Counted from the stretch's first letter, positions 8,943 to 29,996 are shown. The stretch is DNA of 42,226 nt from a virus (IMGVR_UViG_3300021375_000060:1-42226); one strand, 5' to 3'. The notes: generated by a model not told the origin, from the sequence alone. Made by a program: numbers and translations.

Positions 8943-8983
8943 TAGTGAAATATTACAAAATTTATTAATTGGAGAAATATAAG

Positions 8984-9448
8984 ATGCATCCTAAAGTCGC
9001 CATACACACAGAAGCAGGCGTAATCGTAAGAACCGATATGGACAACGGTCTTTATCCAGAAGATGGTCACTCAATAGAAGGTGATAGACTGGTTCATAGA
9101 ATTTGGGATCTAGAGGGTCTCTCCGAGATGGAGTTCATGAATACTCGCGTCTGGAGCGAAGAAGACCAACAGTTCATTGAAGTTCCACCAAAACCAAATG
9201 TTTATGCCACATGGGTAGACGGTGACTGGGAGTGGGACGTAGAACACATTCTAGGCGAGATAAGATTCGTTCGCACCCAGAAACTGGTAGAGACTGACTG
9301 GATGCTTGTCACAGATGCTCCTCTAACAGAAGAAGAACGACAGTCGGTGATATCTTATCGACAGGAATTGCGTGATATCACGGAAACCATAGACATGACA
9401 CAAGTTTCTTCTCTAGAAGATGTTATCTGGCCTATACTAGACTATTAA
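8984..9448 (+). CDS. Tail-fibre assembly chaperone-like protein
   Basis: The protein has 154 residues. The C-terminal half holds the pattern LVETDWMLVTDAPLTEEE, then SYRQELRDI and VIWPI, which is the hallmark of the phage tail assembly chaperone family (Pfam Phage_tail_APC type) found next to fibre genes. Such proteins help fibres fold or trimerise and are generally not virion parts. The ATG at 8984 was chosen over the in-frame TTG at 8969 because GGAG at 8971-8974 lies 9 bases before this ATG and would be inside the gene if TTG were used. The gene ends the first transcription unit, just before a terminator-like hairpin. Confidence 0.68.
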   Translation: MHPKVAIHTEAGVIVRTDMDNGLYPEDGHSIEGDRLVHRIWDLEGLSEMEFMNTRVWSEEDQQFIEVPPKPNVYATWVDGDWEWDVEHILGEIRFVRTQKLVETDWMLVTDAPLTEEERQSVISYRQELRDITETIDMTQVSSLEDVIWPILDY

Positions 9449-9574: not shown

Positions 9575-12500
9575 GTGTCAGCATCTAGTATACCACTAAA
9601 AATTAAGAATGCTAATGGTGACCTACAGGAAATTACACCTTCAGAAGAGATGTATCTCGCTGTAAAGGTGGGTGAAGCACTAGCAGAGGCCTCTGCTGGT
9701 GATATCGGAGACCTCAGTTTAACTGATGGTGTAAACATTGGTTCTTTTGTAGATACGTACTACAATGAACCAACGGGTACTCACCCGTTGTCAAACATCA
9801 CAGGCACTACAGTGACCACTACCTTGAAACAGGTTGGTGGTTCTGCAAGTGAAACTGATCCGAATTTCGCCCGTCCTGTAGGTTATTACGAAGTTGAACC
9901 AAATCCAGGCTTCTACGAAATGGTAGACGCAGACTTGGACAACTTAACAAATCGTGCACTAAAAAATATGGAGACATTAGGTCTTCAAGGTGCATTCGAA
10001 CTTTCTACCACCTCTCCGGGCAGTGATTGGACAAAACATATTGATAATGTTTTTTCTAATACTCTTGGTGACGGTACAACAACAACTTATCATATATGGA
10101 AAAGAACTGCTCTGTCTACACCACCAGCTGGTGTTACAACTGTTCGTCCGGTAGCGACCGACTATGATGGAACTTCATCATTCAATGGTCTGAAAGAAAT
10201 GTCAGACGCGGAGATCAAATATACTCTTGGTCAACGTGCAAAATCCCTCAGAGCAACAGCAGGCGAAATTGGTTCTTATCAGTTACGTTCGTCTGCACAG
10301 GGCGCACCAACCTCCGTTGGTACTTGGGCCGCACGTGGTTCTGCCTCAAACACTCAACCTTCTATTGTTACCGTAGACTATACTCGTACTCGCGCTTCTG
10401 CGTATGCACGTACTAGAGTATCAGCATACACTCGTGATCGAGTTTCTTCATATACCACTAATCGTGTTACAGACTTCTCTCGTACATTTGTTGGCAATTA
10501 TGCTGGAGTTTATTCTCGCGACTTCGCTGGTAATTACTCTCGTAACTTCGCTGGTGAGTACACAAGAACTCGACCTTCTTCTTTTTCCGGAACATATTCG
10601 CGTACTCGTAACTCTACTTACTCACGTACTAGACTAACCGGATTTACCGCGTCATACACTGGTGTTTATAGTCGTGAACGTATATCTGCTTATACGCGTA
10701 ATAACATTACAGAATTTGCCGGTAACTTCGCTGGTAACTATGCAAGAACTTTCGTGGGTAACTATGCAAGATCTTTCGTGGGTAACTACGCACGTGGATT
10801 CGCGGGCAACTTCGTAGGTAACTACGCTCGTGTTTCTACTCGGGCTTCTGCTAGAACTCGTTACTCAGCCTATGCCCGCACATCAACTCGCACTCGTTAC
10901 TCTGCATATGCACGTGACCGTGTAACAAACTTTGCTGGTAACTTCATCGGAAACTATTCTCGAGCGTTTACTGGTGACTTCGCTGGTAACTATACAAGAA
11001 CTTACACAGGTAATTACGCGGGCGACTTTGTTGGTAACTATGCAACTACCTTTACTGGTGACTTCGTAGGTAACTACTCACGCGGATTTGCCGGAGATTA
11101 TACTGGTAACTATGTTGGTGAGTATGCAAGAACCCGTATAACCAACTATGCTGGTAACTTTGTTGGTAACTATGCAACTACTTTTACTGGTGACTTTGTA
11201 GGTAACTACGCACGTGGATATGTAGGCAACTATGCCGGAGATTTCGTCGGTGATTATGCAAGAACCTCAACCCGAACTTCCACTCGCACCTTAAACTATA
11301 CTCGTACATTGTACTACGTTGGTGACTTTGCAGGCAACTATGCTCGTAACTACTCTGCAAACTATGCTCGCACTGTGGCATATACTCGTGTTTTGTACTA
11401 TGCTGGTGACTTTGTAGGTAACTACGCACGTGCTCGTGCATTCAGTTACGTAGGTAACTACTCTCGTACTCGCGCACAAGGCGTTACATATACTGGTAAC
11501 TATGGTCGTACTCGTACTGGTACTTACGGTGGTACCTATACGCGAGCTCGCGCTGCCTCATATGTAGGCAACTATGGTCGTACTCGTGTAACAAACTATG
11601 CCGGGAACTTCGTGGGTGACTACTCACGTAACCGAGCTGCATCCTATGTTGGCGATTACTCCCGTAACCGAGTCGCAGCTGTAGCCTATACTCGCAGTAC
11701 GGGTTATGCTCGTACAGTAAATTACAGCAGAACATCGACTCGTGTCAGTTCTGGTACTGCTTCCTTTGTTGGTAATTATGCTGGTTATGGTCAAGACTTT
11801 CAATACACCGGCACTAACGGTAGCTACGCTTCATGGAAGTATGACTATGGTTACACCGGTGGTGTAACTCTTACCATCAGCTGGGCCGGTGCTGTTCGAT
11901 TTTCCCAATTCTATTCTAATACTGCGTCGGCCCCATTCGACTATGTTGATGTAGGCAACCCATACGGTAGCACAAGATATACTAAGGGGCCAGCTCAAGC
12001 ATCTGCTTCATATTTCTCTTACCACAGTGTTGCAGCGTCGGGTAATGCAAACTACCAATACTACACCAGAACTAGAATAGGTGCAGGGACTTCCTATACT
12101 GGTGACTTCGTAGGCAACTACGGTCGATCCACTACGTATTCTCGAACAGCCTCCTATAATAGAAATGTAACATATACTGGTAACTACGGTCGAACCCGTG
12201 CCGCAACATATACTGGTAACTATGGTCGTACTCGTGTAACAAACTATGCCGGGAACTTCGTGGGTGACTACTCACGTACTCGTGCGGCATCCTATACTGG
12301 TAACTATGCTCGTAACCGTGCATTCTCATATGTCGGGGACTACTCTCGCGCTCGTGCTGCAACACTGTACTATGTTGGTAACTACGCACGTACTCGCACT
12401 GGCTCTTATGAGGGTAACTACGCAAGAACTTCAACTAGAACTTCAACCAATACTGGTTACTACACACGTCAAGTTCTTTATACTGGTAACTATGCGACGG

Positions 12501-13537
12501 CGTACACTCGTAATCGTGTTCAGACCTTTACTAATACTGGTAACTATACACGCGTTGGTTCATACGCTGGTGACTTTGTCGGCAACTACACAAGAACTTC
12601 AACTCGTACTTCTACAAGAACTCGTTACTCTGCATATGCTCGTACTCGTATCACTAACTATGTTGGTGACTTTACTCGTGACCGTGTAACAGACTTTGCA
12701 GGCAACTTTGTCGGCAACTACACAAGAACTTCAACCATAGTTTCTACTCGCGTCCGGTACTCTGCATATGCTCGTACTCGTATCACTAACTATGTTGGTG
12801 ACTTTACTCGCAATTCAACTCGCGATTCTGTTCGCAACCGTGTTTCAGCCTATGCTCGTACCCGCATTACAGATTACTCTGGTGTTTTCACAAGAGACCG
12901 TATTACGGACTTTGCTGGTAACTTCGTAGGCAACTATGCTCGCGGATATGCTGGTGACTACGTTGGTAATTATGTTCGTGGATTTGGTGGGACATACACT
13001 GGTGACTTTACTAGTGTATATACTCGTGAGTCTACCCGTGCTCGTTACTCCGCATATGTTCAAACTCGTGTGTCTTCATACGTAAACAATCGTGTATCCA
13101 CATATTCACGTGACCGTGTAACTAACTTTGCTGGCGACTTTGTAGGCAACTACTCGCGTACATTCGCGGGAGAATTCGCTGGAACATATACCCGTGACTT
13201 CGTAGGCGACTTCGTAGGTAACTACTCACGTGGATTTGTTGGTGAGTACGCTGGTGCTTATTCAAGAGACTTCTCAGGTAATTACTCTAGAGCTCGTGTA
13301 TCAGCTTACGCAAGAATACGCAACTCTACATACACTGGTACTTATTCTCGTGACCGTGTGTCTGCTTACGCTGGTGATTTCGTAGGTAACTACTCTCGTA
13401 CATTTGGTGGTAACTACAATACCGATTTCACCGGAAACTTCTCTAGGGCATTTGCTGGTAACTATGCTGGTGAAACCATTAGTGGTGACCTAGTAGATAC
13501 ACCAGAAACTTATACTTTATACGTAAGGGTTGCCTAA
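9575..13537 (+). CDS. Giant tetrapeptide-repeat fibre-like virion protein
   Basis: The protein has 1320 residues and starts with GTG after a purine-rich AGAGAGA. Residues 1-265 are a non-repetitive head. From about 268 to 726 and from about 836 to 1300 nearly every residue falls into a four-residue repeat: aromatic or Arg, then Ala/Val/Ser/Thr, then Gly or Arg, then Asn/Asp/Thr/Ala (units such as FVGN, YARD, FAGN, YSRT, RVSA). Exceptions are mostly two-residue units, so an even spacing is kept, which suggests extended beta structure. Residues about 730-835 form a different insert rich in Tyr, Trp and Gly. A short unique tail follows. There is no catalytic motif. I know of similar FAGN/VGNY stretches in marine myophage structural proteins but no named fold. 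A fibre shaft role is inferred from context. Confidence 0.7.
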   Translation: MSASSIPLKIKNANGDLQEITPSEEMYLAVKVGEALAEASAGDIGDLSLTDGVNIGSFVDTYYNEPTGTHPLSNITGTTVTTTLKQVGGSASETDPNFARPVGYYEVEPNPGFYEMVDADLDNLTNRALKNMETLGLQGAFELSTTSPGSDWTKHIDNVFSNTLGDGTTTTYHIWKRTALSTPPAGVTTVRPVATDYDGTSSFNGLKEMSDAEIKYTLGQRAKSLRATAGEIGSYQLRSSAQGAPTSVGTWAARGSASNTQPSIVTVDYTRTRASAYARTRVSAYTRDRVSSYTTNRVTDFSRTFVGNYAGVYSRDFAGNYSRNFAGEYTRTRPSSFSGTYSRTRNSTYSRTRLTGFTASYTGVYSRERISAYTRNNITEFAGNFAGNYARTFVGNYARSFVGNYARGFAGNFVGNYARVSTRASARTRYSAYARTSTRTRYSAYARDRVTNFAGNFIGNYSRAFTGDFAGNYTRTYTGNYAGDFVGNYATTFTGDFVGNYSRGFAGDYTGNYVGEYARTRITNYAGNFVGNYATTFTGDFVGNYARGYVGNYAGDFVGDYARTSTRTSTRTLNYTRTLYYVGDFAGNYARNYSANYARTVAYTRVLYYAGDFVGNYARARAFSYVGNYSRTRAQGVTYTGNYGRTRTGTYGGTYTRARAASYVGNYGRTRVTNYAGNFVGDYSRNRAASYVGDYSRNRVAAVAYTRSTGYARTVNYSRTSTRVSSGTASFVGNYAGYGQDFQYTGTNGSYASWKYDYGYTGGVTLTISWAGAVRFSQFYSNTASAPFDYVDVGNPYGSTRYTKGPAQASASYFSYHSVAASGNANYQYYTRTRIGAGTSYTGDFVGNYGRSTTYSRTASYNRNVTYTGNYGRTRAATYTGNYGRTRVTNYAGNFVGDYSRTRAASYTGNYARNRAFSYVGDYSRARAATLYYVGNYARTRTGSYEGNYARTSTRTSTNTGYYTRQVLYTGNYATAYTRNRVQTFTNTGNYTRVGSYAGDFVGNYTRTSTRTSTRTRYSAYARTRITNYVGDFTRDRVTDFAGNFVGNYTRTSTIVSTRVRYSAYARTRITNYVGDFTRNSTRDSVRNRVSAYARTRITDYSGVFTRDRITDFAGNFVGNYARGYAGDYVGNYVRGFGGTYTGDFTSVYTRESTRARYSAYVQTRVSSYVNNRVSTYSRDRVTNFAGDFVGNYSRTFAGEFAGTYTRDFVGDFVGNYSRGFVGEYAGAYSRDFSGNYSRARVSAYARIRNSTYTGTYSRDRVSAYAGDFVGNYSRTFGGNYNTDFTGNFSRAFAGNYAGETISGDLVDTPETYTLYVRVA
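10375..13470 (+). repeat. Tetrapeptide-encoding repeat tract (12-bp periodicity)
   Basis: The coding sequence for the four-residue repeat runs for about 3 kb, interrupted at roughly 11760-12080. Most units differ in synonymous codons, but two long copies are identical at the DNA level: 61 bases at 11570-11630 and 12218-12278, and 53 bases at 12626-12678 and 12758-12810. This suggests both old divergence and recent copying within the gene. Confidence 0.85.
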
Positions 13538-13645: not shown

Positions 13646-14107
13646 ATGAGTCGTAAGCAATGGATGGATAATGCCTTCTGGGAAACAGAAGAAAAGAAAG
13701 AACTGAACTGTATCCTAGAACTTGAAGATGATGTTGGTCGTGTTACACGTCAACAAATGTTTTTACACCGTCATGATAAGGATGGTGGTGAGAACGAATT
13801 GTTTAATGAAGTGATTGATGCCTTAGGCGAAGATTCTATCGATAAAGAAACTACAGATAGAGTTGTTCGTAAGGAGGCACAAGCTGAAGAAGATAAACTA
13901 CGTGAAAATGAACACCAGAAAGCACGTAAACTTGAAAAGTTATTCAACTACAAGATTGAAGCATTTGAAGTAGAAGAAATCAAAAACTCTAAAAACCGAA
14001 AGTTAAAGGCAAAACTGCGTCGAGCAAAATCAAAGATTGAAGTAGATATGTGGTCAATCATGATTCTACAAGATCAACTTGAGGCCGAGAGCGATGGAAA
14101 AGAGTAA
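13646..14107 (+). CDS. Charged helical protein of unknown function
   Basis: I do not recognise this 153-residue protein. It is very rich in Glu, Lys, Asp and Arg, and from about residue 70 to the end it is predicted by eye to be continuous helix, probably coiled coil (e.g. NRKLKAKLRRAKSKIEVDM). A GGAG ribosome binding site lies about 9 bases before the ATG. It starts a three-gene unit in which each gene overlaps the next, followed by a glycosyltransferase and an oxygenase-like gene. A chaperone or adaptor role for the adjacent fibre or for the modifying enzymes is conceivable but not shown. No perfect late-promoter box precedes it; TATAATTT at 13613-13620 is the nearest candidate. Confidence 0.6.
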   Translation: MSRKQWMDNAFWETEEKKELNCILELEDDVGRVTRQQMFLHRHDKDGGENELFNEVIDALGEDSIDKETTDRVVRKEAQAEEDKLRENEHQKARKLEKLFNYKIEAFEVEEIKNSKNRKLKAKLRRAKSKIEVDMWSIMILQDQLEAESDGKE

Positions 14108-14831
14108 AGGGTTTATAATTGTCGCTTCTAAGAAGCATAACTTTTATTTGTATGCAATCAATCTTGCGGAGTCTCTTAGAGACTACTACGAACCAGAAGA
14201 TGAATGTAAAATCTGTCTAGTGACAGAAGAAAGATTCCTAGACGACCGTGGTCGTGATGTCGCAGATGATATTATCTTATGTGACGACCATTATCGAGCT
14301 AAGTTATATGGTATGGCAAAATCACCATACGATATAACGATGTACATTGATGCTGACATGGAAGTCGAGCATGAAGACATTACCAAAGTGTGGGATGAGA
14401 TGAAAGACCACGACGTGGTATTCACTGCCCTCACTGACGACCGCGACTATATTTACGCGGAACGTGATTTTGATACTCCGGAAGGTGTTTCTAAATTTAC
14501 ATTATGTGGTGCTGTTTGTCTATATGATATGTCCAAACCAATTGTTCGGGAGTTCATGGATGACTGGTGGGACTTAACGTTCAGACAGATGAACGATTCT
14601 TGGTGGCCAAAAGGTTATGCAGATTCCCTGAAATCGTGGGATCAATTCTCCCTTTGGTGGCTGACTGAGAAAGAAGAAAAATATAAGGATCTCAAGGTTG
14701 GTATCTTCGATGACGACTTGAGGTGGAACTATTATAACGCTCTTAATTGGGCGATCACAAAACCTGAAACAGGGCCAGTGATTATACGTCACTTCTCTGC
14801 GGGTTTAAATAAGGATACTCCAATCGTATGA
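14094..14831 (+). CDS. Glycosyltransferase-like protein (GT-A fold)
   Basis: The protein has 245 residues from the ATG at 14094; an in-frame TTG at 14079 is less likely. The N-terminus has a Rossmann-like strand and helix (GFIIVASKKHNFYLYAINL), and TMYIDADMEVEH supplies a DxD motif at residues 86-88, the typical metal and nucleotide-sugar binding site. The segments FTLCGAVCLYDM and SWDQFSLWWL resemble acceptor and catalytic regions of GT8-like enzymes. Family members use nucleotide-sugars to glycosylate proteins or glycans. The gene overlaps its upstream neighbour by 14 bases and the downstream one by 4 bases (ATGA). Glycosylation of a fibre protein is inferred from context. Confidence 0.65.
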   Translation: MEKSKGFIIVASKKHNFYLYAINLAESLRDYYEPEDECKICLVTEERFLDDRGRDVADDIILCDDHYRAKLYGMAKSPYDITMYIDADMEVEHEDITKVWDEMKDHDVVFTALTDDRDYIYAERDFDTPEGVSKFTLCGAVCLYDMSKPIVREFMDDWWDLTFRQMNDSWWPKGYADSLKSWDQFSLWWLTEKEEKYKDLKVGIFDDDLRWNYYNALNWAITKPETGPVIIRHFSAGLNKDTPIV

Positions 14832-15535
14832 CACAGGTAAACGACCAATATCTCAAGCACGTCGAGGTTAATAACCCTGAGCTACTTGAGGTTCTAAACG
14901 AATACTCCAAGTTACATACCATGAAAGGGTTTGAGAAAAATTGTCACTTGAATTCTGCTCAACATAAACGTCAACGTAACTACTACGTCGGCCCAGTCCA
15001 TATGGACGAAATTGTTGCTCAGGGTGTAAGTCACGAAGGTTTCCCAGACGAACTCGTTGGTTATAACTTCAAACTTTCTGATAAAACACACATGATGTTT
15101 GAGAAGGACGCAGATCCTATCTTTAAACGTGATATGACTCACCATCTTCGCGACTTGAACGACAAGATGATGAACTTCCTATCCGTCAAACATAATGCAC
15201 TTGCAGCAGTATATCCGCCAGGGGGATTCATCTCTTGGCACAACAATGCTAACGCTCCTGGCTTCAATCTAATCTTCTCATACTCAGAAGATGGTTCTGG
15301 TTACTTCGACTACATCCATCCTGAGACTAAAGAAGTCATCCGTTGTCAAGACGAAGCGGGTAAGTGGACATGCAAAGCAGCATACTTCGGTCACTATGGT
15401 GAAGAGGGTAAGGTTATGTACCATGCCGCTTCTACAGAAGATTGGCGTTGCACAGTATCTTACGTTTTCGACTGGTCAGAAGCATCAGACGACTTCCGTG
15501 AGATGGTTCTAGCAGACATTTCTTCTGCTGAATAA
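14828..15535 (+). CDS. 2-oxoglutarate/Fe(II) oxygenase-like protein with atypical HxN motif
   Basis: The protein has 235 residues. Its C-terminal half resembles the double-stranded beta-helix of prolyl or aspartyl hydroxylase-type oxygenases: an AAVYPPGGFISWHNN entry with H138 and N140, then a distal H199 (KVMYHAAS) and R207 (DWRCTVSYVF) in the places of the second iron-binding His and the 2-oxoglutarate-binding Arg. The usual HxD/E is replaced by HxN, so catalysis may differ or be lost. Such enzymes hydroxylate protein side chains. It overlaps the glycosyltransferase start-to-stop (ATGA), so the two may act on the same virion substrate; that is inference. Other cupin-like functions are possible. 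Confidence 0.5.
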   Translation: MTQVNDQYLKHVEVNNPELLEVLNEYSKLHTMKGFEKNCHLNSAQHKRQRNYYVGPVHMDEIVAQGVSHEGFPDELVGYNFKLSDKTHMMFEKDADPIFKRDMTHHLRDLNDKMMNFLSVKHNALAAVYPPGGFISWHNNANAPGFNLIFSYSEDGSGYFDYIHPETKEVIRCQDEAGKWTCKAAYFGHYGEEGKVMYHAASTEDWRCTVSYVFDWSEASDDFREMVLADISSAE

Positions 15536-15546
15536 AATAGTTCATA

Positions 15547-15609
15547 CCTCAAACCTTAAACGGTTATAAATAGAGAGAGACATTATATAAACTGTTTAAG
15601 GTTTTGAGG
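15547..15609 (+). promoter_or_regulatory. Inverted repeat enclosing a late promoter and masking a ribosome binding site
   Basis: CCTCAAACCTTAAAC (15547-15561) pairs with GTTTAAGGTTTTGAGG (15594-15609), with one bulged base and three more pairs after a mismatch. The right arm contains the GAGG that precedes the ATG at 15613. The late promoter lies in the loop, so late transcripts should start near 15578 and lack the left arm, leaving the ribosome binding site free. Read-through transcripts should fold and be poorly translated. T4 genes e, soc and 49 are known to use this arrangement. Confidence 0.75.
15565..15572 (+). promoter_or_regulatory. T4-type late promoter
   Basis: A perfect TATAAATA box lies 41 bases before the ATG at 15613, inside the loop of the inverted repeat at 15547-15609. 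The predicted start is near 15578. Confidence 0.8.
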
Positions 15610-15612
15610 AAT

Positions 15613-15969
15613 ATGGCAACTTACGAAGATTTCACAATTGATCAAGGTTCTGATTTTGCTCTGCAAATAGAATTAGTAGATCCAGACCAATCAACAAAAG
15701 ACCTAACAGGGTTTTCGGTTGCTGCTAAGATGAAGAAAACCTTCAGAAGCGATGCCGACAGTACTGTTGACTTTACGGCCATTGTCGCAGAACCTTCGAC
15801 CAATGGCGTCGTTACTATATCCCTAACTAACATTCAAACCGATTTACTATCTACTCGCGGTAGGTATGTCTATGATGTCGAGATAAGTTATGTCGACACA
15901 GAAGGCAATACTATCATAGAGCGAGTATTAGAAGGTAAAATAAAAGTCAATCCTTCGGTAACAAGGTAA
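15613..15969 (+). CDS. Ig-like/beta-sandwich virion structural protein
   Basis: The protein has 118 residues. The ATG at 15613 is preferred over the TTG at 15604 because TGAGGA at 15605-15610 would then serve as its ribosome binding site. The sequence (DFTIDQGSDFALQIEL, then DLTGFSVAAKMKK, then GRYVYDVEI and a C-terminal ERVLEGKIKVNPSVTR) matches a small beta-sandwich family found among T4-like marine phage structural genes, similar in pattern to the N-terminal domain of BppU-type baseplate proteins. It probably forms part of a fibre or baseplate attachment unit. Translation is likely controlled by the hairpin that overlaps its ribosome binding site. Confidence 0.6.
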   Translation: MATYEDFTIDQGSDFALQIELVDPDQSTKDLTGFSVAAKMKKTFRSDADSTVDFTAIVAEPSTNGVVTISLTNIQTDLLSTRGRYVYDVEISYVDTEGNTIIERVLEGKIKVNPSVTR

Positions 15970-23093: not shown

Positions 23094-26000
23094 ATGAGTA
23101 CTAATAAGAAATTTAGAATACAAAATGGTGTCGACATTACTGGTGAAGTAGTTGTCGGTAACCAACTTGTAATTACCGCAGAAGGCAAACTTGTACTACC
23201 AGCAATCACTGAGGCTGTAAATGAAGCAGTCGCAAGTGACCTTGCTGCCCTCCAGGCGCAGGTAGATGCAATTCTTGGCACTTCTCCGGAACACTTGGAT
23301 ACACTCCAAGAGATTGTCGCTTTATTCCAAAGTGAAGACGGTGACATTTCAACTTTAATCACGAACAATTCAACTGCAATTACGCAGATTCAACAGACAC
23401 TTGCAAGTGGCGTAGCAACTGCTGCTCAAGGTGCTCTTGCTGATACTGCTGCTCAACAAGCAGACTTGGATGCTGCAATTGCTGCAATTCCTTCAGCTGA
23501 CTTGACTCCGTACTCAACTACTGCACAGATGGATTCATCTATTGCAACTGCTAAGTCAGAAGCTCAGACATACGCAGACCAAGTTGTTGCTGCAACTGTT
23601 GATGCTGCTCCTGCTGCTCTAGACACTCTTAACGAATTAGCGGCCGCACTAGGTGACGATGAGAACTTTGCATCAACTGTTACTACTAGTATTGCAACTA
23701 AAGCTGATGCCGCTGCAACTACTGCTGCACTAGACAGTAAGGTGGATTCTCTCAAATCGTTCACTGTTACGGGTGATGGTATAACATCCGGTACACCTCT
23801 AACAATGAACACTGACGGTACTTTGAGTAAAGCCATTAGTGGTACTATTGCTTCTTGGTCAAAGTCTGAATCAGATATCTTGACTGGAAAGTATTCACAA
23901 TACATTGGTCAAGAATCAAACACAAAAGCAAGGGTCGGATTAAAAACCTTCGACAACGACCAAAAATTCTTCTTGCTCCGAGAGGGCCTTAATGAGGTTA
24001 GCCTCATAGTGGGAGAATTTGATTCTGAAGGCGAACCACAAGAACTCAGCAGTTCAATCTTCCCTTGGCGAGATTATTACACCATGGCCACAGGGTATAC
24101 TCCGCATAGTAGTACACAGTGGGGCGCTCAGCATACTATTTACACTTACGCATTTAACGAGACAAGCGGAAAGGGTATTGCCCTCTTTGGGCACACCATT
24201 AACGACGCACTTATCGCAGTAGGGTTTACAGTTGTAAATGATACCGTCATCTGGGGTTCAGCGAGTAGCGCTAAGGAGTTGACGGTACAGCCTACGGCTG
24301 GTATATGCGTTTCTGACCTTCAAGTTTGGTCTAATGGGTATTGGGCGAATGATGATAGAGTAACTCCCGGCTCTGGTACAGACCCTTGGGGCGGAAGTGA
24401 CTTTATATTTCATGCTGGAGAAAAATATGGAAATGCAACAGGAATAGTAGGACTCAAGATCTCAACTACTGGTGTTGTCAGTCAATCTTTCCATAGAGGA
24501 CGCAGCCCGGTCGCGTGGCAATATACAAACAACGATATTGAAGCAATAATGCTCGGCGGTATGAACCACTTTGATAATACCTACTACATAGTAAAAACTT
24601 CTCAAGATGCTAGTAAGTATAATGTTATTGTTTTCGATATGGATCAATACTCTACACAACAATCTCCATTATTCGATGACCCACAGGCTACATATTTAGA
24701 GTTTGACGCTGACATAGTAACTGGTACTGCATTTGATAGTACTACAGGGAATATGCTTGTACACTATTATGCGGGCGGTGATGAAAGATTGGCAGCCTAT
24801 AATAGTGGTGTGCTTGTAAGTGACACTGTTATCAATTCCAATGTTGGTACACCTCCGACCGTACTAGCGATGACAGAAAATCAACGTAGTATTGAAGTTT
24901 CGGATGATGGTCTAATAATAACTTCTAGGCGGGAAAATCCCGCGGCCACCTATAACAATGGATCAAATCAGTGGCAATATAGTATAGGTAAGTTACACAT
25001 CGAGACTTGGAGTTCGGATACATCAACAACGCCTGTGGATTCATATGAAGTGATTCGTCCTGGCTTTACCAGTACCACCGACGCTGGTGCATTCTGGGGT
25101 ATTAAAAAATCCAATGGTTCTATTTTTGGTTTATCATATCGATTCAATCATAATTCGACCCCAAACGGTCAGGGACATGATTATAATCCTTCTAGCTGGC
25201 CTTCATTCTCATTCACGAAGAGTGTTGCACAGATAGACTCGACTAAGTATATCGGTATAGCTTCGGAAACACCATCAAACTATGAAGTGTCTGTTGTAAT
25301 TTCCGGTGGTATTAGTTCTGGTCATACTGGTCTTATCCCATCTTCAATCTACTATGTGCAGACAGATGGTTCTTTAGGAACTACTCAAACTTCTTTGAAA
25401 GCTGGTGTTGCGATTAGTGCGACAGAAATTAAAGTTTCTGACAACCTAAGTGATGCTCTTACAGACTTGTCTTCATATGCTACTAAAGAATATGCTGACC
25501 AGGCTGCTGCTGGTGTAGATTTATCTACATACGCAACTACTGCACAGATGGATTCAGCAATTGCAGCAATTCCTGCAACTGACTTGACTCCGTACTCAAC
25601 TACTGCACAGATGGATTCAGCAATTGCAGCAATTCCTGCAACTGACTTGACTCCGTACTCAACTACTGCACAGATGGATTCATCTATTGCAACTGCTAAG
25701 TCAGAAGCTCAGACATACGCAGACCAAGTTGTTGCTGCAACTGTTGATGCTGCTCCTGCTACATTGGATACGTTGAATGAACTAGCAGCTGCTCTTGGAG
25801 ATGATGCAAACTTTGCTGCTACAGTAACCGCAAGTCTTGCTACTAAAGCTGATGACGCTGCAACTACTGCTGCTCTTGCTGATAAAGTTGGTCTAGCTGA
25901 AGTTGATATCCGAATGGAACCAATCAAGCAACTAGCAGAGTCTGCGATTCAAGCAGAAGACTTTGGTTCTGGCATTTCGTTGTCTTCACAGACTTTGGTA

Positions 26001-29000
26001 GACTGGTCTTCGGACAGTGTATTGCAGACTCCTGCAACGATTGCTGCCCCATCTAGTGTCACTTCAGACGCATGGGCTTATGGTACCATTGTTGCTAATA
26101 ACTCTACGAAGTGGGCCACGAATGACTGGCTTCATGATGGTGATAAGGGTAGAGTTTATGTATTTAACCAGTCGGACAATTCTTTGGCATTCACCCTAGA
26201 TGGTACATCATCGGGCGAAAGAATGGGGTCACTTGCTATTATCATGAACGATGAGTATATCGTTGCTGGTTCTTATAATTACAATGGTGAACAAGGTAGA
26301 GTTCATGTCTTCTCTGCTGTAGACGGTTCGCCTTTATACATCTTGGAACCGGACAATGTTCCTAACCCTTGGAATCAGTTCAAAGGTAGATTCGGTGGCC
26401 GAGGCCTTGCCTTAGAAGGTTCTAATCTATATGTTGGTAGTACAGAACATATCACGATTGGTGATGGTAATGTCGATGGTCAATATGAAGCAGGTGCTGT
26501 CTACCACTTTGATCTTTCCACAGGAAACAAAGTTTATCGTATCGAGAATCCTATTGCTGAAGGTTATGGCAGTAACAACTGGTTCGGTAAAGAAATTTCT
26601 GTTCATGGTAATAATGTTTATGTCAGTTATGGAAGCACTCATGGCGGTTTACATCACTACACCTTATCAGGTTCAACTCTAACACTACAAAACTCTTTTG
26701 CGTTTGGTGGTATTAGTGGTTTGGGTGACGGTGCAAACAGCCAATTCGGTCAACAAACAGATACGAACGGAACTTACTTTATAGCATATGCTCCAATGAA
26801 CCAAGGTAGCAGTGGAGACTTCGGTGTTATAGTATATAAGAATGAAGACCTCCACAATAGTGTATTTGAACCTATCTATAATATAGATACCACAAATGCT
26901 GGTTATGGTGGACTCTTGTTTATTGACGGGAATGTTATTGCTGCGGGAGTTGGTTCCAGTGATAGTATACAGATTTACACTCTTGGAGATACTCTAAGTG
27001 AAGTTGTGACTGGACAAACTCTGTCTGCGGGAAATATCTTTAGTAGAGAAGGTACTGATGGTGGTGCGAAACCATTTGCCTACTTATCCGGTTCTTCTAA
27101 GTTCATCTATAGAACGGAACAGTCATCCACAGATATCGGCATGTATGATGTTGTGTCTTCTAGCACATCAAGTTATATCGTTGATGCTTCAGTATTTGCT
27201 ACTAAAGACTATGTTGACTCTGGTGTTGCTGGTGTAGATTTGTCTGGTTACTCAACTACTGCTGAAATGGATTCAGCTATCGCTGCAATTCCTGCAACTG
27301 ACTTGACTCCATACTCAACTACTGCACAGATGGATGCTGCAATTGCTGTTGAGACTGGTGCTAGAGAAACTGCGGTAACATCTGCAATCTCTACCGCATC
27401 TGCTGATGCAACTGCCAAAGCAGACGCTGCACAAGCTGCTGCAATCGCTGCTGCCGGAACTGCCGCAACACAAGCAATCGCTGATACTATTGATGCTGCC
27501 CCTGCTTCGTTAGATACTCTTAACGAACTAGCAGCTGCTCTAGGTGATGACGCAAACTTTGCTGCTACAGTAACCGCAAGTCTTGCCACTAAGGCAGACG
27601 ATGCTGCAACTACTGCTGCTCTTGCTGATAAGGCAGACGATGCTGCAACTACTGCTGCTCTTGCTGATAAAGTTGGTCTAGCTGAAGTTGATATCCGAAT
27701 GGAACCAATCAAGCAACTAGCAGAGTCTGCAATCCAAGCAGAAGACTTTGGTACTGGTATTACGCAAGTATCCACGACTGTAGCTGATTGGTCTTTATTA
27801 ACATCAGCAGACTTCGCTGCGATATCTGATCCTGACGAAATATACACCAAAACCGACGACGTGAAAGTGGTAGATGCGACAGACACTCACTTCGTGACTT
27901 TGCTGATGTCCAATATACCAGGCGACACAAGCGACACTTATCGAGAACTAACAATCAATGTACATCTACTAGATGGTACTCTGGTCAAGTCTTTCCAAGC
28001 TACCGAGGACTACCCAGAACTTAATTATTCTTGGTTGAGTTATCTTTCTGTAAATGGCAACTACATTTCCCTAAGTAGATGCGCGGCGACAGGTGATGAC
28101 ACTGGAACTGGAGCATACAGTAAGATATATGATATAAGAAATATTGCCCAAGCAGACCACGGTCTTGTTAAAACTATTAATGAAGATAATCTACGTAGAC
28201 TCTTCACTATAGACGATACTAGAGCAATCGCGGTTTATGGGGGAACTTATCAAGCCATTGATACTGTTAAAGTACACAACATCTCCGATTGGTCTGAGTT
28301 ATACTCCTTTGACACGCCAGGAGTCCCTGATGAAACAGACTTCGGTGGCGGTTACTTTGTAACTGGTGGGGTGACTGGTAATACTAACGCCGGCATCACT
28401 ATATTGAGTACCTCCGGATCTTACGGTCTTGCTGGAATTGTATACAATGAATTGTGGCATGGCCCAACTAACAACACCATCATGTTTGCTAATGGTATCA
28501 CTGTCAATGACAAGTATGTAGTATTCAGGACTCAAGAAACAGATGGTACAAACCGTGCACATGTCCATAATCCTGTTGATGGTAGTTACATACGTTCGTT
28601 CGTAGAGGACAGCAACAATCCTTGGCAAGTTTTGAACAACACCCAAGGTCTTGGCAAAGCGGCTCTTGCACTGTCTGGGGATGTTTTATTCGTTCCTTTG
28701 GGAGACTATAATTCTGGTACCCAGCAGTTGAAGAAGGGTATTGCAATTTATAGCATACTAACAGGTGAACTATTAAATGAAGTTACTGTGTTCGACGGCC
28801 CGAGATACTCTGGTGGCAGCGAAGCTGAAAACCTGTATAATGTATATACCGTTGGTGGTTCAACTATTATTGATATGAATGAAGAGACGGCTGACGGTGG
28901 TTCTATTAGTCCACTTATTGCTGCAGCTCCAACATCAAGTACTAGTTCTTATGGTGTCGATGCTTCAGTATTTGCTAGTAAAGACTATGTTGACTCTGGT

Positions 29001-29996
29001 GTTACTGGTAACGAAAGTCGATTGACTATTGCTGAGAACAACCTCACTGCACTTGAAGCGGACTTAAGCTCTGAAGAGAATGCACGTGGCGCTGGTGATG
29101 CTGCACTTGGTCTAAGACTTGATTCTGATAAGTCTGAACTCGACACTGCAATTGGTACGTTAGGTGCGAGACTTGATTCTGATAAGTCCGAGCTTGGTGC
29201 TGCAATTGATGCTGCTATCGAACAGGAAGTTCAAACTCCATTAGACTTGGAGATTGGTCGAGGTTCTAAGTCACTTAGAGTTGGTAGAAACACTGTTGCA
29301 AATACCGATGGTGGTATTGCAATCGGTGACGCTGCTAATGCTGCTGGCGCAAAGTCAATTGCGTTAGGTACTAGTGCTACTCCTACTGGTGACAATGGTA
29401 TCGAAATCAAGACCTCTGAAGCTGGTACTTTGTCTTACTCTTCAGATTCTGATTGGTCGTTTGGTGCTCCTGTTACTGCACCATCGTTCATCGGTGATGG
29501 TTCTGGTCTAACTGGTATTAGTTCTGATGTTACAAGTGCAATCGCTGCCGAAGAAACTCGTGCAACATCTGCGGAATCTGGTCTACAGACTCAGATTTCT
29601 AACATCTTGTCTAACACTGACTCTGCTGCACTAAACTCTCTTGCAGAAATCGTTACTGAGTTCCAGAACGCTGACAGCACCCTAAGTGGTGTAATTGGTG
29701 GTCACGGTACTCGATTGACAGATTTGGAAGGTCGCACTACTGATAATATCCCAGAAGGTATTACCAATAAGTACTACTCTGATGAACTTGTCAAGGCTAC
29801 GTTGTCTGGTGGTTTGTGTATCAATGATACTAAACTACAAGCGACTGGCGAGATTGCAGTTGATGAAGTGGAAGCAGAACAATCACTACGTGTTGCTGAA
29901 GCTGTTGTGTCGGATGATACTACTAAACTAGAAGGTCAGGATGGTTCACACTACCGTATTGACATCTACGATGTGAACGGTACTATCGTTAACTAA
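23094..29996 (+). CDS. Giant modular fibre with three beta-propeller-like domains
   Basis: The protein has 2300 residues. Ala-rich helical linkers (about residues 25-220, 770-955, 1375-1555, 1965-2050) alternate with three beta-rich domains (about 225-768, 968-1348, 1563-1945). Domain 2 has units such as GRVYVFN, GRVHVFSAVDGS and GAVYHFDLSTG with preceding IVAGSYN or YVGSTE strands, like FG-GAP or YncE-type propeller blades; domain 3 is similar and domain 1 less clearly so. Domains 2 and 3 begin after the same AEDFG.GI...DWS element and end in DASVFA.KDYVDSGV. Near residues 2052-2102 GGIAIGDAANAAGAKSIALG resembles YadA-type head repeats, followed by SFIGDGSGLTGIS. A receptor-binding role is inferred. 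There is no catalytic motif. Confidence 0.78.
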   Translation: MSTNKKFRIQNGVDITGEVVVGNQLVITAEGKLVLPAITEAVNEAVASDLAALQAQVDAILGTSPEHLDTLQEIVALFQSEDGDISTLITNNSTAITQIQQTLASGVATAAQGALADTAAQQADLDAAIAAIPSADLTPYSTTAQMDSSIATAKSEAQTYADQVVAATVDAAPAALDTLNELAAALGDDENFASTVTTSIATKADAAATTAALDSKVDSLKSFTVTGDGITSGTPLTMNTDGTLSKAISGTIASWSKSESDILTGKYSQYIGQESNTKARVGLKTFDNDQKFFLLREGLNEVSLIVGEFDSEGEPQELSSSIFPWRDYYTMATGYTPHSSTQWGAQHTIYTYAFNETSGKGIALFGHTINDALIAVGFTVVNDTVIWGSASSAKELTVQPTAGICVSDLQVWSNGYWANDDRVTPGSGTDPWGGSDFIFHAGEKYGNATGIVGLKISTTGVVSQSFHRGRSPVAWQYTNNDIEAIMLGGMNHFDNTYYIVKTSQDASKYNVIVFDMDQYSTQQSPLFDDPQATYLEFDADIVTGTAFDSTTGNMLVHYYAGGDERLAAYNSGVLVSDTVINSNVGTPPTVLAMTENQRSIEVSDDGLIITSRRENPAATYNNGSNQWQYSIGKLHIETWSSDTSTTPVDSYEVIRPGFTSTTDAGAFWGIKKSNGSIFGLSYRFNHNSTPNGQGHDYNPSSWPSFSFTKSVAQIDSTKYIGIASETPSNYEVSVVISGGISSGHTGLIPSSIYYVQTDGSLGTTQTSLKAGVAISATEIKVSDNLSDALTDLSSYATKEYADQAAAGVDLSTYATTAQMDSAIAAIPATDLTPYSTTAQMDSAIAAIPATDLTPYSTTAQMDSSIATAKSEAQTYADQVVAATVDAAPATLDTLNELAAALGDDANFAATVTASLATKADDAATTAALADKVGLAEVDIRMEPIKQLAESAIQAEDFGSGISLSSQTLVDWSSDSVLQTPATIAAPSSVTSDAWAYGTIVANNSTKWATNDWLHDGDKGRVYVFNQSDNSLAFTLDGTSSGERMGSLAIIMNDEYIVAGSYNYNGEQGRVHVFSAVDGSPLYILEPDNVPNPWNQFKGRFGGRGLALEGSNLYVGSTEHITIGDGNVDGQYEAGAVYHFDLSTGNKVYRIENPIAEGYGSNNWFGKEISVHGNNVYVSYGSTHGGLHHYTLSGSTLTLQNSFAFGGISGLGDGANSQFGQQTDTNGTYFIAYAPMNQGSSGDFGVIVYKNEDLHNSVFEPIYNIDTTNAGYGGLLFIDGNVIAAGVGSSDSIQIYTLGDTLSEVVTGQTLSAGNIFSREGTDGGAKPFAYLSGSSKFIYRTEQSSTDIGMYDVVSSSTSSYIVDASVFATKDYVDSGVAGVDLSGYSTTAEMDSAIAAIPATDLTPYSTTAQMDAAIAVETGARETAVTSAISTASADATAKADAAQAAAIAAAGTAATQAIADTIDAAPASLDTLNELAAALGDDANFAATVTASLATKADDAATTAALADKADDAATTAALADKVGLAEVDIRMEPIKQLAESAIQAEDFGTGITQVSTTVADWSLLTSADFAAISDPDEIYTKTDDVKVVDATDTHFVTLLMSNIPGDTSDTYRELTINVHLLDGTLVKSFQATEDYPELNYSWLSYLSVNGNYISLSRCAATGDDTGTGAYSKIYDIRNIAQADHGLVKTINEDNLRRLFTIDDTRAIAVYGGTYQAIDTVKVHNISDWSELYSFDTPGVPDETDFGGGYFVTGGVTGNTNAGITILSTSGSYGLAGIVYNELWHGPTNNTIMFANGITVNDKYVVFRTQETDGTNRAHVHNPVDGSYIRSFVEDSNNPWQVLNNTQGLGKAALALSGDVLFVPLGDYNSGTQQLKKGIAIYSILTGELLNEVTVFDGPRYSGGSEAENLYNVYTVGGSTIIDMNEETADGGSISPLIAAAPTSSTSSYGVDASVFASKDYVDSGVTGNESRLTIAENNLTALEADLSSEENARGAGDAALGLRLDSDKSELDTAIGTLGARLDSDKSELGAAIDAAIEQEVQTPLDLEIGRGSKSLRVGRNTVANTDGGIAIGDAANAAGAKSIALGTSATPTGDNGIEIKTSEAGTLSYSSDSDWSFGAPVTAPSFIGDGSGLTGISSDVTSAIAAEETRATSAESGLQTQISNILSNTDSAALNSLAEIVTEFQNADSTLSGVIGGHGTRLTDLEGRTTDNIPEGITNKYYSDELVKATLSGGLCINDTKLQATGEIAVDEVEAEQSLRVAEAVVSDDTTKLEGQDGSHYRIDIYDVNGTIVN
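23499..23615 (+). repeat. 117-bp linker repeat, copy 1
   Basis: This segment is identical to 25644-25760. It encodes the linker from DLTPYSTTAQMDSS through VVAATVDAAPA. The two copies flank the first beta-rich domain of the 2300-aa fibre, so recombination between them could delete or replace that domain. Confidence 0.9.
25534..25760 (+). repeat. 63-bp tandem units followed by 117-bp linker repeat, copy 2
   Basis: Two full 63-base units (25534-25596, 25597-25659; 21 residues including TAQMDSAIAAIPATDLTPY) are followed by a partial third at 25660 that runs into the 117-bp repeat shared with 23499-23615. A related linker recurs near 27250-27340. Confidence 0.88.
25857..25945 (+). repeat. 89-bp linker repeat, copy 1
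   Basis: This segment is identical to 27642-27730. It encodes AATTAALADKVGLAEVDI and onward to the start of the conserved element before each of domains 2 and 3. The second copy is preceded by a 39-base tandem duplication (DDAATTAALADKA, about 27600-27677). Confidence 0.9.
27642..27730 (+). repeat. 89-bp linker repeat, copy 2
   Basis: Second identical copy of 25857-25945. Together the copies bracket the second beta-propeller-like domain of the 2300-aa fibre. Confidence 0.9.

Follow-up and report, generated by a model that had tools for sequence, protein, structure and literature searches.

Two long arms in mirror register in a viral repeat protein, a probable out-and-back tail-fibre shaft

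Described phage shafts and the locus

In the needle of T4 gp37 (D10-D11), the chain runs from the knob to the distal tip and back again, so that both termini are found at the knob; the stem arms (882-931 and 960-1009) enclose the tip domain (932-959), which binds the receptor (PMC9603124). The triple-stranded beta-helix of T4 gp5/VgrG is a phage beta-structural shaft in which three parallel chains are wound round one axis, and its octapeptide repeat is rich in Gly and Asn/Asp (PMC3004832), a feature shared with the protein described here.

We analyzed a window of 42,226 nucleotides of viral DNA (IMGVR_UViG_3300021375_000060), in which one ORF encodes a repeat protein of 1320 residues. The features of this gene and its neighbourhood are listed in Table 1. 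As judged from its sequence, the protein appears similar to gp37 in having equal arms around a central region and a single mirror register, and the AlphaFold2 model of one relative (L046) suggests that the termini may likewise lie together at the base. The two differ in scale: the gp37 arms have about 50 residues, whereas those of the present protein have 470 and those of relatives up to about 1000, so that the gp37 needle is about ten times shorter, and phmmer and PDB profile searches detected no sequence homology. T4 gp37 uses iron-binding HxH motifs, whereas neither arm of the present protein contains a single histidine. To our knowledge, no complementary repeat code has been described for T4 gp37. 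Among named phages, the N-domain was found in C48C1 only (64% identity), whose homolog WJE88074.1 (OQ984149, Kyanoviridae; 3347 residues) is annotated as hypothetical; it shares the mirror stem, with an arm 1 of 1024 residues.

Table 1. Features of the repeat-protein gene and its surroundings, in window positions
Feature	Position	Strand	Remarks
ORF of the repeat protein	9575-13537	+	GTG start; 1320 residues
N-terminal domain, residues 1-267	9575-10375	+	family-conserved start SASSIPLKIKN..GDLQEFTP
Arm 1, residues 268-737	10376-11785	+	HMM segmentation; residues 268-700 (10376-11674) pair gap-free with arm 2
Central non-repeat region, residues 738-829	11786-12061	+	HMM segmentation; centre of mirror symmetry i+j=1566
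Arm 2, residues 830-1299	12062-13471	+	residues 866-1298 (12170-13468) pair gap-free with arm 1
Proposed C-terminal clasp, residues 1300-1320 (...ETYTLYVRVA), and stop	13472-13537	+	kept in almost all complete members
Tail fibre assembly chaperone	8969-9448	+	PHROG 4912 E=5.9e-11; Pfam Phage_tail_APC E=1.4e-11
Baseplate wedge piece	61-453
Glycosyltransferase-like protein	14079-14831		weak Glycos_transf_2 match; homologs downstream in 44/56 loci
Iron/2-oxoglutarate hydroxylase-like protein	14828-15535		resemblance by eye; homologs downstream in 38/56 loci
L-shaped-tail-fibre assembly protein	15604-15969
Large tail fibre protein	23094-29996

The chaperone gene lies directly upstream of the repeat-protein gene, a homolog precedes the fibre gene in 23 of 56 distinct loci, and its product likely assists folding of the fibre. 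Beyond the large tail fibre gene, head closure, tail sheath stabiliser, terminase and sheath genes were found. These gene assignments identify the surroundings as the fibre block of a T4-like myophage; the C48C1 homolog sits in the same gene order. By its location, in a fibre/baseplate block with an assembly chaperone, the gene falls into the functional class of phage tail fibres, and this neighbourhood lends support to the fibre-shaft role proposed in an earlier note on this DNA. The glycosyltransferase-like and hydroxylase-like products may modify the fibre.

As in the earlier note, which knew of no described fold, database searches did not connect the protein with any described family or known fold. 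Pfam and PHROGs searches with the 1320-residue protein returned nothing usable, phmmer and profile searches of PDB sequences returned nothing significant, and Pfam gave no accepted match to the central region. Foldseek comparison of AlphaFold2 models with PDB and BFVD found nothing at E<=0.001. A match to an S-RIM2 'structural protein' was discarded as a short local similarity with no hairpin.

Tetrapeptide repeat, equal arms and mirror register

Residue-identity autocorrelation over residues 268-1300 gave z values of 8.7, 16.2, 17.2 and 18.1 at lags 4, 8, 12 and 28. Lags that are multiples of 4 lay at z 7 to 18 above shuffles, while each odd lag from 1 to 39 lay 5 to 8 sd below them. Because all odd lags fell below the shuffles, odd/even parity is held over at least 40 residues. 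A four-phase HMM assigned Y/F/R to phase 1, A/T/V/S to phase 2, G/R to phase 3 and N/T/D/A to phase 4. The period-4 unit and the strict alternation of a beta-strand kind that the earlier note had claimed were thus borne out, the former by periodicity and HMM and the latter by parity. Its statement that the breaks are mainly two-residue units also held: 11 of 12 HMM phase jumps skipped two residues and one skipped three, and in 27 non-redundant relatives 264 jumps skipped two, 31 skipped three and 14 skipped one. The repeat is not the single run of about 900 residues that had been described, but forms two arms of 470 residues each, separated by about 92 residues of non-repeat sequence. Nor are the two-residue breaks scattered; they are mirror-placed between the arms, at residues 573/994, 579/986, 638/931 and 716/852 (sums 1565-1569). 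Lys, His and Cys are absent from the arms (window 10376-13471), which contain 127 Arg and a single Pro and carry a net charge close to +80.

Arm lengths were also near-equal in relatives with total lengths from about 830 to 2280 residues (634/635, 659/660, 709/709, 544/544, 886/883 and 193/197). Given the mirror-placed breaks and near-equal arms, we therefore tested residue S-i for its dependence on residue i. The mutual information peaked sharply at S=1566/1568, with values of 215 and 207 against a median of 26 (sd 30), and in other full-length relatives too the peak fell at the S that the arm ends imply. With a leave-one-out pair matrix, the expected register was top-ranked in 17/17 proteins, which share ancestry and are thus not independent tests. 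A matrix trained without the 1320-residue protein scored S=1566 at 1.53, compared with 0.52 for the best alternative within +-300. Locally, register 1566 scored positive in every 24-residue block from 264 to 719 and came third or better among 201 in 18 of 19 blocks; it was mostly first or near-first rather than always first, the blocks at 384 or 456 being exceptions. The gap-free stem comprises 433 residues per arm and scored 750, compared with 76 for a unit-shuffled copy and at most 41 for the other long window ORFs tested, none of which had a mirror stem. In 6/6 proteins compared, the antiparallel register outscored the best parallel offset. The forward sequence of arm 1 complements the reversed sequence of arm 2 in a single register (i+j=1566) that extends across at least 433 residues.

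These results bear on whether the tetrapeptides could be successive faces of a beta-solenoid or of a triple-stranded beta-helix of the T4 gp5/VgrG type, with the arms independent of each other. Although periods of 4 and 8 with GN/GD motifs recall octapeptide beta-helix repeats, such a structure predicts no mirror pairing, equal arms or central turn, and leaves the equal arms, the one mirror register and the mirror-matched indels (see below) unexplained. Parallel chains without reversal do not fit the advantage of the antiparallel register or the central turn of the simple members, and searches of PDB, Pfam, PHROGs and Foldseek for an octapeptide beta-helix found no match. We consider this fold very improbable. 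The beta solenoid suggested in the earlier note likewise gained no support: the family autocorrelation contained no single coil period, lags 12, 24, 28, 44 and 72 being prominent with shared ancestry as a confounder, and antiparallel mirror pairing of the arms dominates.

The earlier note had also suggested structure prediction of the monomer, which was carried out with AlphaFold2 for single chains of L046 (829 residues) and of residues 201-1320 of the window protein. The L046 model reached a pLDDT of about 75-88 for the greater part of the N-domain (residues 1-275) and of 85 in the final C-terminal block, in which residues 816-827 formed a strand; these were its sole confident parts. The shaft had a pLDDT below 30 in L046, and across the two models it stayed below 30 to 41. 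This low confidence neither supports nor refutes a fibre, as alignments of little depth and the lack of partners would both produce it. It could also be taken, together with the Tyr/Arg 'sticker' composition, as a sign of a disordered sticky polymer without defined structure, its shaft bearing a net charge of about +80. However, such a polymer would require neither a strict parity of odd and even positions nor indels of even length, nor a long-range register that is unique, and we regard it as highly implausible.

Pairing rule and its conservation in relatives

Pair preferences were derived from 10,904 mirror pairs in 17 proteins. On one face, Tyr:Tyr (5.2 times expectation), Arg:Gly (3.6-4.0), Arg:Phe (3.6-4.1) and Ser:Arg (1.6-2.4) were enriched, while Arg:Arg (0.1) and Tyr:Gly (0.1-0.2) were depleted. 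On the other face, the enriched pairs were Asp:Ile (9-11), Asp:Val (3-5), Asn:Val (2-3), Val:Thr (2.6-3.3) and Ala:Asn (about 2.8), and the depleted ones Val:Val and Asn:Asn (0.2). In the 1320-residue protein, Arg of arm 1 stands opposite Gly or Phe 39 times and opposite Arg 0 times. Octads of the Arg type face octads of the Gly/Phe type, and the types swap sides along the shaft. The aromatic ladder of the earlier note is recast as a cross-strand pairing rule of Tyr:Tyr, Arg:Gly and Arg:Phe.

Identity between residues at mirror positions was low (about 0.12-0.16), indicating complementarity and not identity. This value also argues against mirror symmetry being a DNA-level by-product of inverted repeats or palindromic duplication, meaningless for the fold. 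Repeat genes do recombine readily, but the sole DNA inverted repeat was a single 17-nt chance-like pair, and a palindrome would set Tyr codons against Val/Ile codons, in conflict with the Tyr:Tyr excess. We give this explanation almost no weight.

A second profile scan of viral contigs yielded 229 stretches that encode relatives. Thirty-one proteins were withheld from training of the pair matrix; in 27 of them, the top-scoring stem without gaps closed at S-L=237-256, the same site relative to the C-terminus; the held-out set includes L152 (a near-identical second contig of the window phage) and L109 (a duplicate of an earlier relative), so that about 25 of the 27 are new. The held-out stems spanned 127-656 pairs. 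A full-length stem was absent in a few relatives (L071, L139, L149 and L067).

The central loop ranged from 13 residues (L129, L138 and L147) to about 1080 (L114). In simple relatives, a GGGK(S/G)G(D/N) turn is exactly central and pairing reaches up to it. The pairing rule is most plainly visible in these simple members: around the centre of L147, which reads ...AYSRTRATNYAGGGKGGNAYNYTGNFVGNYTGNF..., RATNY lies opposite reversed FVGNYTGN with the Gly-rich loop exactly central. The relation i+j=constant would fit equally well an antiparallel head-to-tail homodimer paired over its full length, with the centre as the middle of a two-headed rod. However, the turn-like loop of the simplest members, the insertions of 13 to about 1080 residues precisely at the centre, the C-terminal strand predicted to fold with the N-domain in a single chain (L046) and the out-and-back precedent of T4 gp37 (PMC9603124) speak against it. 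Because of the central turn and the tip insertions in particular, a full homodimer is less likely than a chain folding back on itself, and we regard it as unlikely.

Comparison of close relatives revealed 83 arm indels, 82 of which were even in length. Thirty had a mirror partner of equal length and direction, whereas random placement gave a mean of 2.7 and a maximum of 10 in 1000 trials; the other 53 were without a mirror partner by the strict test, many of them in more divergent pairs. The arms of L072 and L081 differ solely in two indels of 4 residues each, one at 521 and the other at 748 (the mirror of 521 being 746). Matched indels were also seen in L010/L034 (40+40 and 2+2) and L052/L057 (60+60). 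Mirror-paired indels of 28 residues (seven units) recurred in the arms of L007/L022, L018/L013 and L061/L063, which may point to 28 residues as a quantum of structure or of duplication. Mirror positions were co-substituted at 2.55 times expectation, compared with 1.43 times in shifted controls; between L007 and L022, for example, I:D is exchanged for V:N and D:I for N:V.

In the C48C1 protein, arm 2 alone is broken up by five domains of about 130-280 residues that lack the repeat, and arm 1 keeps pairing past each of them with zero residues skipped. These domains resemble bulges in an RNA stem. Pfam gave no accepted match to them. In the same protein (L003, residues 1785-2061), a near-exact duplicate, KTRHRSYLYYSTDTSTNQQFFEPRVDDMTHSSVPSLDLLRQATPS, flanks a short repeat piece in arm 2 and is a recent domain-end duplication.

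Two tandem hairpin-fibre genes, one short and one long, were observed in many related phages, namely L068 (439-6448), L072 (5950-14457), L092, L093, L096, L104, L114 and L158, both products ending in TYTLYVR-like C-termini. Members of the family occur widely in viral metagenomes from aquatic habitats and are nearly absent from the records of named phages. One relative (L088) lies on a 142-kb contig, JAAXIF010000028.1, that was binned into a Sphingobacteriales genome; this is perhaps a phage contig and might hint at the host. A search of ten related contigs, several of them fragments, failed to reveal psbA, so that a cyanobacterial host is not indicated.

Proposed fibre and its meaning

We propose, with a probability of roughly 0.8, that the protein is the tail-fibre shaft of a T4-like marine myophage with an out-and-back antiparallel beta structure. 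Very probably, the chain leaves along the fibre and folds back over its full length. The N-domain would anchor the fibre at the base, arm 1 would extend outward from it as one very long strand, the chain would cross a tip domain formed by the central region, and arm 2 would come back as a second strand of the same length. The last 20 or so residues would then clasp the N-domain again; docking of the C-terminal strand on this domain is proposed from the predicted L046 model. A single register would be kept by the Arg-rich octad (YxRx RxSx) opposite the Gly/Phe octad (YxGN FxGN), with Tyr:Tyr, Arg:Gly and Arg:Phe pairs on one face and Val/Ala opposite Asn/Thr/Asp on the other.

The arms are presumably beta strands, and pairing would occur within one chain or between neighbours of one fibre. 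By analogy with known fibres, the assembly would be oligomeric, probably a trimer, and the protein would sit in the virion with a receptor-binding tip. If the strands run along the axis at 0.33 nm per residue, 433-470 residues would correspond to a shaft of roughly 145-155 nm, similar to the T4 long tail fibre, and fibre lengths between about 40 and more than 300 nm would be expected among the relatives.

Long-range order in proteins is normally not readable as simple strand complementarity. We think it likely that these proteins represent a class whose arms, from about 100 to 1000 residues long, recognise each other by residue-level antiparallel complementarity in a nucleic-acid-like manner. 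The out-and-back topology has a precedent in T4 gp37, but the sequence principle of complementary arms is rated as categorically new, because such complementarity was not found described in the open-access literature, homology to gp37 is lacking and the arms are about ten times longer. That literature yielded neither a description of this repeat nor one of a fibre of this kind.

If such a class is real, compensating substitutions, paired indels, loops and bulged-out domains would all belong to its scheme, and fibre length and branch points would be readable from sequence. A pairing rule derived from one part of the family predicts the register in which other members fold back. Three questions thereby become testable: by what means very long beta fibres come into register, how phages adjust the length of their fibres and how two distant gene segments stay matched in length during evolution. 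The pairing preferences also offer a candidate set of rules for long hairpin fibres of protein.
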